64,000 nucleotides of DNA from Phycisphaerales bacterium (GTDB taxonomy: Bacteria > Planctomycetota > Phycisphaerae > Sedimentisphaerales > Anaerobacaceae), in the NCBI GenBank assembly GCA_020352215.1, contig CP070675.1, positions 3,421,670-3,485,669 on the forward strand, given 5' to 3'. The stretch's first letter is position 1. Each line of letters starts with the position of its first letter. The notes beneath the pieces are model-generated. The model searched no databases. It was given only the letters and a program-made list of their open reading frames with translations, and was not told the origin of the DNA. Shown here in pieces: positions 485-7,041 of this stretch. Made by a program: the position numbers and the translations under genes.

Positions 485-619
485 TCAGTTCGGCTGCTCC
501 ACATAACCAAGATTACCGTCCTCCAACCAATGCACGGCCATAATCTCGAGGTCTGCGAAATTCACCTTGCAGTCGCCTCGTTGTGTCTGTTCTCTGCAAG
601 ACACGGAGGGCTTGGCATT
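485..619 (-). pseudogene. Out-of-frame dockerin-like tail
   Basis: The minus strand has a short open frame (stop TAG 620-622, end TGA 485-487) encoding GDCKVNFADLEIMAVHWLED and a few further residues. This is the single calcium-loop dockerin tail seen at the end of the two neighbouring beta-helix proteins. It has no start codon. It overlaps the last 58 bases of the upstream gene in another frame. The upstream protein ends in a low-complexity stretch unlike any domain, so a single frameshift near 620-660 would restore a dockerin tail to it. A sequencing error or a genuine mutation are both possible. Confidence 0.6.
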
Positions 620-3600
620 CTATAGTCTACCATGCTCGCCACTTGGCGGGGCAAAGAGTGCGAAGGCCAACTTCTGTAGAGGACAATTTCTCCCTCCTCA
701 ATTCTATATGTTAAATCCTGTGGGGCAAGGATGTCTTCAAGGGCTTGATGAAGAGGTTGATTGTCGATCTGGACATCCCAAATGAATTTGCGACATTCAG
801 GATCTGTCTGGGAGTAGGATTTTTGCCAATTGTATCCTATGCCCGCCTGCTCGGCGATATTCAACGCAATAGTCTGTACACTCGCTCGTTCAGCGAAGAA
901 GCTGACTTCGGTCATGAGACGAGGGTCGCTTATGGGTGGGAACACGGGGATGGATGTCCAGCCATAGAACTCCAGCCATTGCTTTTCCAGAGACTCCATG
1001 TCCGTGCCGAAGATATCACAGAACACGGCCTCCTGCAATTCGCCGCCGTCCGTGGCTTTTGCCGCCTCCAAGCACGCCCTCCGGAAGCGATTCAATGTCT
1101 CGGAACCATACTTCTGCTCGAAGAAGAACATAGCAGCAACCGCCTCGTCGAATGCGGCCTTGTCTGCTCCTGCAATCTGTCCGAGGTGATATAGTGGACC
1201 ATCTGGCAGCTTGGCGCATATTTCGTTCTTTACATTCTTGCCTTGCGCTTGCAGTCCGGCCCGCGTTTGAAAATAGATACAGGTGAACTCCCCGGCCCAC
1301 CATCCCTGTGCTTTGCCCTGCAGAAAGGCGAAGTTGAACAGATGCGTCTCTTCATGGAGAAGACTTGTCACGATTGAGATGATGTCGCCTTGATCCCCCG
1401 TACGCATAGCATTGGTCAGCATGCTGCACCGAGAGTGACCCAATTGATTAGGCACGATGAATGCTTTTATGGGAGGTTCTGCCTTTGCCGGGCTCCGTCC
1501 TTTTAAGAACTCGTAGATATTGTCAATGAGGCAGTACAATTCAGCTATCTTGTTTTCATCCGTGGACTGCTGAAAGTAAATCTCATGGTACTGAGTGGAC
1601 ATCATCAGCCATTGCCTGTTTTCAAGGTCTTCACCCAATCCACCAGTCTGACCCACTTCAACTGTCACGGGAGAGGGGATCTGACCAAGCCCGCGCTTCC
1701 AGAGTAGACTCCAATCATCGCAGAATTCAGGGGATTGACAATTGTTGTCCCATAACCAATGTAGGGCCATGAGTCGAAAGTCAAGGAGATCCACTCTGCA
1801 GTCACCGTTGATGTCGCCAGCAACGACAGTCTCGCACACCGGTTCGCCGAAGTATGACTTGCTGGCCTCGGCCGTGCCGCCGTAGGCGCCCATATTGACC
1901 AGGCCGCCATTGGGAAACGGCTCGTGTCCGATAGGACTGATCGGATCACCGGCATCAATGCAGGGGCTTGTAACCTCGTCTCTTACCCAGCTTTGGGTTG
2001 TAGGCTCCCACCGCCCGGCCCGGGATTGCAGGTGATAGTCACCGTGGACCCAGATATCGTCGGTCTCGCTGTAGGGAGTGTCGCACGGATCTTCCCAATG
2101 TCCTGCGTCAGCGAAGCACGGATCAGCGTCCATATTGCCATCGCCCCAGACTACGCCTTCAAATTGGTCATAAATCCCCGCGCGCCCACCTTTGACGTTG
2201 CAGGAGAAGATGCTTATTCTCGCGCCAGGCTTATTGTTGACAATATTCTTGCCGCCCTCGCTGTCCCAGAAGATGCAATTTGTTGCTTGAGCGTTGCTTG
2301 GAAAGTCCTCGGCGGTACAGGCCAGTCCATATCCGACGTTTCCACTGAACGTACAGTTAGCCAGTGCTAAGCTGCTGTCGTAATTGCAGACAGCGCCGCC
2401 GAAGTTCGCCCGGTTGCCGCTGAACGTGCAGTTGCTGAGTCTCGAGTTGCTATCTTGCCAATTAGCCATCCCGCCGCCGTCGAACACTACTGTGTTGCCT
2501 GTGAATACGCAATTGTTCAGTGTAGGGTTACTTTCAGAGTTGTACATCCCTCCACCGACCCACGTTGAGTGGTTCCTGCTGAATATGCAGTTGGTAAAGG
2601 TCGGACTGCTGTTGTGGTTGTAGATCGCGCCGCCTGTCCAACTGGCTGAATTGGCGCTTAAGGTGCAATTGATGACGGTGGGGCTGCCAGACTCATTACA
2701 CATTCCGCCCCCAAAGCCAATGGGGGTACCCTCACGACCACCGGGTTCATAACGGTTGTCGTTGCCCCCGGTTATGGCAAACCCATCAAGAACAGCGGTC
2801 ACGTTCGTACCGCTGCCTGTGACCACATTGTAGCTGTTATCAAGTCGGCTTGAGTGAAAGGCTACAACGACAAACATCGCACCTTCATTATCATTATCCT
2901 TAAGATCACCGCTAAGGACGGTCCCATATTCATTGATATCCCGCACATTTGGGTCTGGTTCGCCAAGACCAGCGTAGCCGCCTCTGATTGCGACACCATT
3001 GTTCAACTGAAACGTCCGCGTCCGATCGCCGGGCGTGATCCCCGCGCCCTGATCCGGCTTGTATACGCCTTGCGCTACACGAATATTTACCGGCTTTTCC
3101 GCGGAGTTGGCATCCGCCAACGCATCCTGCAAGCTGTTATACGCATCCGGCCAGCCTAAGCCGTTATTTGCCCCGGCCGCATCGGCATCGACATATATGA
3201 TCGCTTTTCGTCGGAGCCTGATTTCAACCGTGTTGACCTTGTACTTTGCTTCATGGGCGACGGACAGCGGGTCGATCCACAGTGGGTGTGGGACATCATC
3301 CCGAAGAATCACCAAATCGACATCATGTACGACCGCCATATCGTTCGGCGTCAGGTAGTATGTCCCTTCCTGCAAATGCCCATGGTAGCCCTCCAGCGCA
3401 TCGGCAGTGTTTGCCGTTACAGTTTGGCCTGGTTCTATCTTTCTGACCGGGACTGTGAAGACTGTCTCTCCATCGATTTCTACATAATAGTGTCGTGGAG
3501 GAGGCGGGGGTGTTGCGGAAGGATCACCAGCGACCGTGATTCCATCCTTGTCTTTGACTCTAATGGTCAAGCCGAGAAGAAAACCGTGCCGGTCAACATA

Positions 3601-3837
3601 TATGTACACCGGCTGTGGAGACGAATTCACAATGGTTACGGTCAGCGGAACTTCTTCGCCGAGGTCGTAGAAGTCCTTGAGCGCACTTGCACTAACAGTG
3701 ACCGGTGAGTGTACATCTGCGCCGTGGGCACCTGCGTCGACGTATATGATTCGTCGTGCGGTAGTCCCAGGTGCTGTCAGCACCGCGAGAAACGCCGAAG
3801 TTATCACCAATCTCAGAGCTTCCGCTTTCCTGCTCAT
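562..3837 (-). CDS. Secreted beta-helix / dockerin / HEETH metallopeptidase-like / STN-like fusion
   Basis: A 1091-residue exported protein. The start at ATG 3837 overlaps the upstream stop as ATGA and has GGAGGAG just before it; the frame extends to a TTG at 3852 that would sit on top of this ribosome site. Order of parts: signal peptide (1-28); an Ig-like region to ~200; a right-handed beta-helix region (~210-650) opening with YVDADAAG...GLGW and rich in GGGM-N...NCTFSGN turns; a dockerin loop GDINGDCRVDLLDF near 675; an HEETHLF zinc-protease-like motif near 829 with a GEFT Glu downstream; and an STN-like region (~990-1062). The catalytic role of HEETH is inferred. The C-terminus may be frameshifted: a dockerin tail lies out of frame just downstream. 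Probably exported and attached to polysaccharide or to the cell surface. Confidence 0.85.
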   Translation of the reverse strand: MSRKAEALRLVITSAFLAVLTAPGTTARRIIYVDAGAHGADVHSPVTVSASALKDFYDLGEEVPLTVTIVNSSPQPVYIYVDRHGFLLGLTIRVKDKDGITVAGDPSATPPPPPRHYYVEIDGETVFTVPVRKIEPGQTVTANTADALEGYHGHLQEGTYYLTPNDMAVVHDVDLVILRDDVPHPLWIDPLSVAHEAKYKVNTVEIRLRRKAIIYVDADAAGANNGLGWPDAYNSLQDALADANSAEKPVNIRVAQGVYKPDQGAGITPGDRTRTFQLNNGVAIRGGYAGLGEPDPNVRDINEYGTVLSGDLKDNDNEGAMFVVVAFHSSRLDNSYNVVTGSGTNVTAVLDGFAITGGNDNRYEPGGREGTPIGFGGGMCNESGSPTVINCTLSANSASWTGGAIYNHNSSPTFTNCIFSRNHSTWVGGGMYNSESNPTLNNCVFTGNTVVFDGGGMANWQDSNSRLSNCTFSGNRANFGGAVCNYDSSLALANCTFSGNVGYGLACTAEDFPSNAQATNCIFWDSEGGKNIVNNKPGARISIFSCNVKGGRAGIYDQFEGVVWGDGNMDADPCFADAGHWEDPCDTPYSETDDIWVHGDYHLQSRAGRWEPTTQSWVRDEVTSPCIDAGDPISPIGHEPFPNGGLVNMGAYGGTAEASKSYFGEPVCETVVAGDINGDCRVDLLDFRLMALHWLWDNNCQSPEFCDDWSLLWKRGLGQIPSPVTVEVGQTGGLGEDLENRQWLMMSTQYHEIYFQQSTDENKIAELYCLIDNIYEFLKGRSPAKAEPPIKAFIVPNQLGHSRCSMLTNAMRTGDQGDIISIVTSLLHEETHLFNFAFLQGKAQGWWAGEFTCIYFQTRAGLQAQGKNVKNEICAKLPDGPLYHLGQIAGADKAAFDEAVAAMFFFEQKYGSETLNRFRRACLEAAKATDGGELQEAVFCDIFGTDMESLEKQWLEFYGWTSIPVFPPISDPRLMTEVSFFAERASVQTIALNIAEQAGIGYNWQKSYSQTDPECRKFIWDVQIDNQPLHQALEDILAPQDLTYRIEEGEIVLYRSWPSHSLPRQVASMVDYRMPSPPCLAENRHNEATAR

Positions 3838-5150
3838 CTCTCCTCCAGCCAATGCAGAGCCATGACATTAAAGTCCATGAAGTCGATCTTGCAGTCGCCG
3901 TTAATATCGCCTGCGACTATTGTATCACAAACCGGCTCGCCGAAGTATGACTTGCTGGCTTCGGCTGTGCCGCCATAGGCACCGATATTGATGATGCCCC
4001 CATGCGGGAATGGCTCTTGCCCGATTGGGGAGAAGGGATCGCCACCGTCGATGCAGGGACTTGTCACGCCGTCCGTGACCCAAGTGCCGCTGTCAGGATC
4101 GTATCGGCCAGCTTGGGATTTCAAGTGATAGTCGCCGTCGACCCAGAGATAATCAACATAACCCGGGGGCCTATCGTTTGGCTCGTATGGCTCCCAGTGG
4201 CCGGGATTGGCAAAATATGGTTCCTTGCTTGTCCAATTCCCCTCTATAGGAACGAGCGTGCAGATAGCGTCGGCATCATTCTGAACTATGCAGGAAGCAA
4301 GCTCAAGGGGCATCTCTCCTGCTATGCCTCCCCCCCGATTTGCTATTTGCTGGCAAGTTCTGGCTGTGTTTCCCCATATGATGCAGTTACGCATAACACC
4401 GCCTTTTTCTGTGTCAGGATACCTGCACAGTATTCCGCCGCCGTAGCCGTAGTAGCCTGTGCGGTTCCCGTAGATTGTGCAGTTGACAAAAGCAGGATCG
4501 CCTGCACAATCGATACCCCCTCCATACTCGCTGCTGCGATTGCCACTGATGATGCAGTTGGCGACTATGGGGTGGTGACCGACAATATATATTCCTCCGC
4601 CTCCACCGGCGGCGCCTGATGAAAGCCAACTCCGCGGGTTACTGGAAGCCAAATTATCGGATATAATACACCCAACGATAAGCGAGTTCGATGCTGAACA
4701 CGCAATTCCTCCCCCCGCGCGGGCGATATTGCGGACCAATGTACACTCTCTGATGGTGGGGCTACTCTGGTAACAGTATATCGCGCCACCCCTATACACA
4801 CTCATATAAGCGCCAGTGATAGTTAAGCCCTGCAGGACCGAGTCTTCTTCCTCTCCACTATGAAAGTAGAAGCCCCTATGAGGATCATCTTCCGATCCCT
4901 GACAATTGATAACACAGGTGCCTGGCCCCTCTTCGCTTCTGACAGTTATTACCTTGCCTTTGAAATCTATGTCTCTGTTACCATCGCCGGTATAGGTGCC
5001 GGGGGCAACCTGAACCACGTCGCCGTCGTTGCAGTCGTCGATCGCTGCTTGAATTGTGGCGTACTGATCCGGCACCAGACGAGTTACAGCTTGTCCGCAC
5101 TCTCCCGCGCATACCACTATCGCAAGGCCCAGTAGGATTGCCGCTCTCAT
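3834..5150 (-). CDS. Secreted right-handed beta-helix protein with dockerin-like tail
   Basis: 438 residues with a signal peptide (MRAAILLGLAIVVCAG), then a pectate-lyase-like opening (DQYATIQAAIDDCNDGDVVQVAPGTY) and turns of GGI/NC repeats typical of parallel beta-helices. It ends in VAGDINGDCKIDFMDF and MALHWLEER, a single calcium-loop dockerin-like tail. The last ~75 residues are near-identical to residues ~620-695 of the next gene, and the DNA there is also alike, so the two are recent paralogues. The start has a GGGCGGAG ribosome site. The stop overlaps the next start as ATGA, which suggests translational coupling. No catalytic residues can be assigned; it may bind or cleave polysaccharide. 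Confidence 0.88.
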   Translation of the reverse strand: MRAAILLGLAIVVCAGECGQAVTRLVPDQYATIQAAIDDCNDGDVVQVAPGTYTGDGNRDIDFKGKVITVRSEEGPGTCVINCQGSEDDPHRGFYFHSGEEEDSVLQGLTITGAYMSVYRGGAIYCYQSSPTIRECTLVRNIARAGGGIACSASNSLIVGCIISDNLASSNPRSWLSSGAAGGGGGIYIVGHHPIVANCIISGNRSSEYGGGIDCAGDPAFVNCTIYGNRTGYYGYGGGILCRYPDTEKGGVMRNCIIWGNTARTCQQIANRGGGIAGEMPLELASCIVQNDADAICTLVPIEGNWTSKEPYFANPGHWEPYEPNDRPPGYVDYLWVDGDYHLKSQAGRYDPDSGTWVTDGVTSPCIDGGDPFSPIGQEPFPHGGIINIGAYGGTAEASKSYFGEPVCDTIVAGDINGDCKIDFMDFNVMALHWLEER

Positions 5151-5667: not shown

Positions 5668-7041
5668 ATGTCCAGACGTAGCTTTATGTCGGTAGTTGTA
5701 GCTCTGCTCGCGGTAACGGCCTGCCAAGCTGAACTCCAGATCAATACCTATACCACCCACGACCAGATATACCCGGCCGTGGCCATGAATGCCGGCGGCG
5801 ATTTCGTCGTCGTATGGCGGAGCCAATTCTTAGATGGCAGAGGCGGCGGCCTTTACGGTCAGCGTTTCGGCGCTGACGGTGCTGCTCGCGGCGATGAGTT
5901 CAACATCAATATGACACAAATCGATGTGGGCGTTTGGGCCCCCTCTGTCGCTATGCATTCATCCGGCAGCTTTGTGGTCGTCTGGGCCACCGCGGACAGC
6001 GGTCATTCCGACATAGTGGCCCGTATGTACGATGAAGAGGGCGAGCCTGTCACGGATGAGTTTGTGGTTAATACAGTCACTGAAGGGCCGCAGTGGAACC
6101 CAAAGATTTCTATGAATTCAAGCGGGGATTTTGTCGTAGTCTGGGGCTGCTGGTGCGGCCAGGACTATGTCGGCAAAAACTGCGTGGCCGGCCGCTTGTT
6201 CGACGCTGCCGGTGTCCCAAAGGCGGACGAGTTTACAATCAGCCAGCTTCCGCACGGCTGTGTGCCTGATGTGGCGATGGATGATTCCGGTGACTTTGTC
6301 GTGACGTGGCTTCGCGATGGTGACATGGACGACCGGCCGTTGGGCCAGTACATCAGGCTCCGCAGGTACAATGCGGATGGCACGCCCAAGGCGGACGTAG
6401 TTGAGATTACCAAAGACCTGAGAGGCCGGTGGTATGGGCCGTCGGTAGCTGTGGATCCCGGCGGTAGTTCGGTCATAGCCTGGGCGTGTGGCCCCTGGCC
6501 TTATGACATTCTTGCTGAGCGTTTCGACCCAAACGGTGTCCCGATCGGTGAGCCGTTCCTCGTGAATACACACACCGAAGGCAATCAAGGTGCCCCTCGC
6601 GTGGCCATGAGCCGTGCCGGCCAGTTCGTAATCGTCTGGGAGAGCAAGGGTCAACACAGCACAAGCTATGATGTCTTCGGACAGCGGTACAACTCTGACG
6701 GGACTCGGCTCGGTGGGCAACTCAGGCTCAACACTCACACAGCGGACAGACAGTGGTATTCTGATGTGGCCATGGCCGAGGGTGGCGACTTCGTCACCGT
6801 ATGGGTAAGTGAGCAGCAGGATGGCTCAGGCTATGGAGTCTTTGGAGAGCTCGTCCCGAAACCGGCATCTCCCGACTGCAACGGCGACGGGTTCGTTGAT
6901 TTTAGTGACTTCTGCATTATCGCCGAGCAATGGCATGTGGAAGACGCGCCCTACATCGCCGACCTGGCCACCGACAATAGAGTTGATGGCTTCGACCTGG
7001 TCCGCTTCGCAGCGCACTGGCTTAAACCATGCGGCCAGTGA
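5668..7041 (+). CDS. Secreted seven-repeat propeller-like protein with two dockerin-like repeats
   Basis: 457 residues. A signal peptide (MSRRSFMSVVVALLAVTACQA) is followed by seven repeats of the form P-x-VAM-x3-GDFVVVW, with GQRF-x2-DG-x3-G-x-EF between them. Seven copies suggest a closed seven-bladed beta-propeller. The C-terminus has two dockerin-like loops, DCNGDGFVDFSDF with IIAEQW, and DLATDNRVDGFDL with FAAHWL. The two-loop form differs from the single-loop tails of the beta-helix proteins. The start has GGAAGG ten bases upstream. It reads alone, with an ECF-type element upstream, and converges with the glycosyltransferase gene. Function unknown; a surface adhesin or carbohydrate-binding role is plausible. 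Confidence 0.87.
   Translation: MSRRSFMSVVVALLAVTACQAELQINTYTTHDQIYPAVAMNAGGDFVVVWRSQFLDGRGGGLYGQRFGADGAARGDEFNINMTQIDVGVWAPSVAMHSSGSFVVVWATADSGHSDIVARMYDEEGEPVTDEFVVNTVTEGPQWNPKISMNSSGDFVVVWGCWCGQDYVGKNCVAGRLFDAAGVPKADEFTISQLPHGCVPDVAMDDSGDFVVTWLRDGDMDDRPLGQYIRLRRYNADGTPKADVVEITKDLRGRWYGPSVAVDPGGSSVIAWACGPWPYDILAERFDPNGVPIGEPFLVNTHTEGNQGAPRVAMSRAGQFVIVWESKGQHSTSYDVFGQRYNSDGTRLGGQLRLNTHTADRQWYSDVAMAEGGDFVTVWVSEQQDGSGYGVFGELVPKPASPDCNGDGFVDFSDFCIIAEQWHVEDAPYIADLATDNRVDGFDLVRFAAHWLKPCGQ

Follow-up and report, generated by a model that had tools for sequence, protein, structure and literature searches.

The minus-strand reading frame at 562-3837 of the window, the whole 64,000-nucleotide stretch of DNA analysed here, is probably a genuine gene fusion that produces an exported multi-domain protein, a putative surface or periplasmic gluzincin peptidase with an STN docking module. 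The frame is open without a break over 562-3852, and the ATG at 3837, its likely start, gives a predicted exported protein of 1091 residues. The initial annotation had described a four-part exported fusion of beta-helix, dockerin loop, HEETH metallopeptidase-like and STN-like regions, and these parts do lie where it had placed them within one uninterrupted ORF. All of its parts belong to known kinds, while the join is new and the architecture so far unique, the full fusion having been seen in one genome only. This ATG shares bases with the TGA stop of the gene upstream (3834-5150), which encodes a beta-helix protein that ends directly after its dockerin loop; the neighbouring paralogue matches PF13229 in Pfam at 38.5 bits. 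On the downstream side, positions 1-510 of the window (minus strand) hold the start of the next gene, whose product looks exported and, by eye, of SGNH type; a Pfam scan of this fragment gave no match.

What did the fusion bring together? The N-terminal 706 residues belong to the genome's large family of signal peptide-beta-helix-dockerin proteins and carry, in addition, an Ig-like domain close to the start. A predicted signal peptide (residues 1-27, 3757-3837, minus), recognizable by a basic start, the hydrophobic core LVITSAFLAVLTA and then PGTTA, is followed by RIIYVDAGAHGAD (residues 29-41, 3715-3753, minus), a partial copy of the mature N-terminus of the paralogues. In those paralogues the signal peptide is followed by KIIYVDDDAAGANDGSSW; our query has this motif twice, at residues 29-41 and 212-226, and the Ig-like region (residues 42-210, 3208-3714, minus) sits between both copies, as if an Ig-like module had been inserted near the beginning of an otherwise ordinary beta-helix-dockerin family member. 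Residues 42-210, putatively Ig-like, share 38-43% identity with two small membrane-anchored proteins encoded in tandem in genome G039 and 28% with the N-terminal part of a TPR-like protein from genome G122. A Pfam scan of the region returned nothing over the cut-off, and its single-sequence fold had a pLDDT of 32. The G039 pair (locus L018, 1438-2971) comprises proteins of about 250 amino acids each, with a signal peptide, an Ig-like module and a C-terminal membrane segment. The right-handed beta-helix itself (residues 212-665, 1843-3204, minus) scores 25.9 bits against PF08480, over the cut-off of 22.6, falls just below the cut-off for PF02415, and has many paralogues in the genome at 45-57% identity. 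The first 706 residues as a whole gave 118 matching stretches in the genome, in a family whose members often stop behind the dockerin.

The dockerin is a single dockerin-type repeat with a Cys-containing tail, WLWDNNCQSPEFC (residues 671-706, 1720-1827, minus). Its calcium loop spans residues 671-697 with D675-x-N-x-D-C-x-V-D-x-x-D686 intact, and the calcium-ligand pattern is thus present at D675, N677, D679, D683 and D686. Against PF00404 it reaches 13 bits, below the cut-off of 22.9, over the first 23 of 57 positions; it is one repeat and lacks the two tandem repeats of a type I module. Tails of the C..P..C kind like WLWDNNCQSPEFC end other dockerin proteins of the genome. The initial annotation had found the mid-protein position surprising because dockerins were taken to be normally terminal, a premise that proves weak here: a genomic dockerin query found 95 places at E 0.05, and 23 of the 70 best carry more than 100 in-frame residues after the dockerin, so a dockerin in mid-protein is not exceptional in this genome. 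Within the closest subfamily, sister fusions carry HEAT-like (L066), propeller-like (L073) and Ig-like (L065, L071) extensions behind beta-helix and dockerin, these extension labels having been assigned by eye. At many other loci of this genome (G000), two-repeat dockerins lie directly behind the signal peptide at the start of long proteins (for example L110, L117, L119, L127, L132 and L135), and in the dockerin protein L068 a stop falls between the first repeat and another, repeat-like segment that keeps the frame. The short frames L091 (G000:C1:650000-652500), L064 and L074 hold little beyond the dockerin end of the beta-helix family and are apparently debris of decayed members. No PF00963 cohesin match was found in the genome at E 0.1, in an assembly rated 89.8% complete and by a search that very divergent cohesins could escape; with no cohesin found, the dockerin's part may be a structural one, that of a calcium module.

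Behind the dockerin lies a gluzincin-like (DUF1570-like) domain (residues 707-960, 958-1719, minus), recognized by 37-54% identity to the Acidobacterial proteins L025, L026 and L030 and by hhalign. It keeps an intact HExxH-x17-E signature, comprising the HEETH zinc motif (residues 828-832, 1342-1356, minus), which is invariant in its relatives, and the candidate third ligand Glu850 in WWAGEF (1288-1290, minus). LHEETHLFN and WWxGEF are invariant in all four aligned proteins, which come from two phyla. Comparison with an alignment of DUF1570 members by hhalign gave 96.1% and an E of 3e-9 with HExxH and the glutamate in register, the query's HEETH aligning to HEATH and the stretch around Glu850 to the W-x-x-E of DUF1570 proteins. 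A profile search reached seven proteins (L138-L144); all three that were scanned match DUF1570 over the cut-off, and one of them also matches Peptidase_MA_2 and M1 over their cut-offs. Like DUF1570 (PF07607) and Peptidase_MA_2 (PF13485), the domain has HExxH with the third glutamate on W-x-x-E and a similar C-terminal F...F...L-x-x-x-W stretch; unlike them, it has GEFxxxYFQ in place of EGLAxYFE. A direct Pfam scan against these clan MA families (PF07607/PF13485) gave no match, and because the similarity is of the profile-profile kind we file the domain as DUF1570-like rather than as a member. These comparisons support its assignment as a divergent clan MA gluzincin, a DUF1570-like putative peptidase.

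Would this domain still cleave peptides? The initial annotation called it metallopeptidase-like, and the profile-profile match and the conserved ligands bear this out, while its zinc site is modelled at low confidence only: an AlphaFold model built from three sequences is poor near HEETH (pLDDT about 41). Comparison of this low-confidence model with M1, M9 and M30 chains by VIA-align gave Z scores of 7-8, in the range of common arrangements and not taken as proof, and the sequences of solved structures gave matches at chance level only. The uncertain model of the active-site region and the distance from characterised peptidases would fit a domain that has lost catalysis and is kept only for structure or binding. 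We regard such a loss as unlikely, since HExxH, Trp-x-x-Glu and the residues around them do not vary across four relatives that span two phyla. Our reading is that of a putative zinc-dependent peptidase. Plasmid or viral relatives of the domain were looked for and none were found; a search of the literature on DUF1570 function or STN-peptidase proteins yielded nothing useful.

The last domain resembles STN, the N0 domain of secretins (residues 985-1060, 658-885, minus), by both PF07660 and a fold match. PF07660 matches residues 1022-1055 at 23-25 bits (24.9 at best), under the cut-off of 28.4, and the domain is for this reason termed STN-like. Its part of the model is confident and superimposes on EscC (3gr5) with Z 9.7 and an rmsd of 2.1 over 82 residues; as modelled, it has the beta-alpha-beta fold of N0. 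The query thus shares with STN (PF07660) and secretin N0 domains both the profile match and the fold, and differs in that its STN-like domain is joined to a peptidase rather than to a secretin or TonB-dependent receptor. Other genomes have STN relatives in unrelated contexts, for example in HEAT or TPR proteins. We suggest that the domain would act as a protein-docking module.

Are peptidase and STN found together elsewhere? A scan of the genome collection with the C-terminal half recovered two Acidobacterial loci, L025 and L026. L025 (JACQZR010000277.1, ORF 5857-7002) encodes 381 residues made up of leader, peptidase and STN, and is the nearest relative with the same peptidase-STN layout. The C-terminal 385 residues of the query align with it over nearly the whole length at 37% identity. 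The same two domains stand in the same order in both; in L025, however, they form a gene of their own with its own leader and without beta-helix, Ig-like region or dockerin. L025 ends directly after the STN domain and lacks the C-terminal tail of the query (residues 1061-1091 and the stop, 562-657, minus). L026 is a peptidase without STN that appears 5'-truncated, and L030, whose source shares its phylum with that of L025, is likewise a peptidase that lacks STN, encoded separately and apparently exported. Given the 37% identity to L025 and the 54% identity of the peptidase core to L026 and L030, the architecture is not a product of chance. The core is nearer to these two than to L025 (40%), which indicates that peptidase and STN are separable modules.

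The C-terminal part of about 385 residues occurs once in the host genome, against many occurrences of the beta-helix part. Overlapping sets comprising 148 relatives, 397 genomes from the class and 392 from the phylum yielded distant matches only. Such sporadic occurrence may reflect lateral transfer. GC content in the C-terminal part is 0.50-0.52 versus 0.53-0.56 in most of the rest of the ORF, and codon usage is alike, so that nothing points to a very recent transfer.

How were the two halves joined? The alignment with L025 begins at PDWEKLW, just behind its leader, and in the query at DDWSLLW, just after the dockerin tail WLWDNNCQSPEFC; L030 has NDWQTLW in the matching place, behind a leader-like stretch. 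No stop or frame break occurs across the junction at residue 707. The second protein thus lacks its leader and the first its stop, with nothing between. The initial annotation offered as one explanation that a lost stop had fused two genes. The fusion stands, and the halves, which it had proposed to look for as separate genes, do exist as such in L025 and in the beta-helix-dockerin family. The mechanism does not stand: simple stop loss, which would leave an intergenic stretch and a second signal peptide, is ruled out by the absence of both. With leader and stop both gone, a deletion or recombination is needed. By our proposal, a secreted peptidase-STN protein, minus its signal peptide, would have been joined in frame directly behind the dockerin tail, where the stop of the dockerin protein was lost as well.

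Two neighbouring genes might instead only seem joined, a stop close to the end of the dockerin having been masked by an error of assembly or sequencing. The host genome (6.2 Mb), which its gene content suggests to be Planctomycetota-like, is a single-contig assembly with completeness rated at 89.8%, in which indel errors are possible, and the ORF does end in a frame-broken dockerin. A hidden stop, however, would predict a second start and signal peptide, and none lies between Cys706 and the conserved DDW; moreover, other family members in the genome carry the same kind of extension. We consider such an error very unlikely and keep to a genuine fusion.

The frame-broken dockerin lies at 485-577 (minus, GDCKVNFADLEIMAVHWLEDGN...YVEQPN*), in another frame and overlapping the ORF end. 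It scores 37.0 bits against a dockerin HMM built from the same genome and covers positions 9-26 only; it is 5'-truncated, without the first eight HMM positions, which include the GDIN half of the loop. It is probably a decayed C-terminus. In two sister fusions, L071 and L073, a dockerin stub likewise lies no more than 64 bases from the stop, and L122 and L137 have a dockerin-X-dockerin arrangement in one frame. The true protein might accordingly continue in the other frame as beta-helix-dockerin-peptidase-STN-dockerin, the frameshift being an error or a recent mutation; the overlap of the 37-bit stub with the stop, the stubs behind the sister fusions and the one-frame arrangements all speak for it. 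The missing first eight positions, GDIN half included, mean that more than a lone frameshift separates the stub from a canonical dockerin, and we judge this continuation unlikely. The position of the stub out of frame suggests rather that the protein originally had a dockerin at its C-terminus, which disappeared during the fusion or later. On the simplest reading, the second partner, or the gene replaced by it, once ended in a dockerin that has since decayed.

A further explanation for stubs directly behind three extension-bearing genes is that dockerin DNA serves as an integration site for cassettes such as peptidase-STN, whose arrival leaves truncated stubs. The stubs begin at differing points, and we regard this as exceedingly improbable. 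Across 19 copies, codon identity at shared amino acids was 42-48% versus 40% expected from codon usage, so the dockerin region has no marked conservation at the DNA level, and the integration-site candidate was rejected.

The nearest published idea is the planctosome model of freshwater Planctomycetes, with dockerin/cohesin-anchored peptidases attached via cohesins (PMC6461901). Exported peptidases are linked to dockerin modules in that model as in the query; planctosome peptidases, however, bind via cohesins (PMC6461901), whereas the query peptidase is covalently fused, in a genome where no cohesin was found. The fused protein would present a zinc-dependent gluzincin-type peptidase on a beta-helix stalk, either in the periplasm or at the cell surface; the adhesin that matures itself or others, suggested in the initial annotation, is conceivable but found no support. 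More tentatively, it could be a working one-piece surface protease in which the beta-helix/dockerin stalk replaces non-covalent cohesin-dockerin attachment, from a genome that would routinely make enzymes of this sort by placing catalytic or binding domains behind its beta-helix-dockerin proteins. The host genome does encode members of this family in which further domains follow the dockerin, and its dozens of dockerins with no detectable cohesin bear on what a dockerin does if it does not bind cohesin. The C-terminal half, in turn, places the host bacterium alongside Acidobacteria as a sporadic holder of a rare peptidase-STN family.
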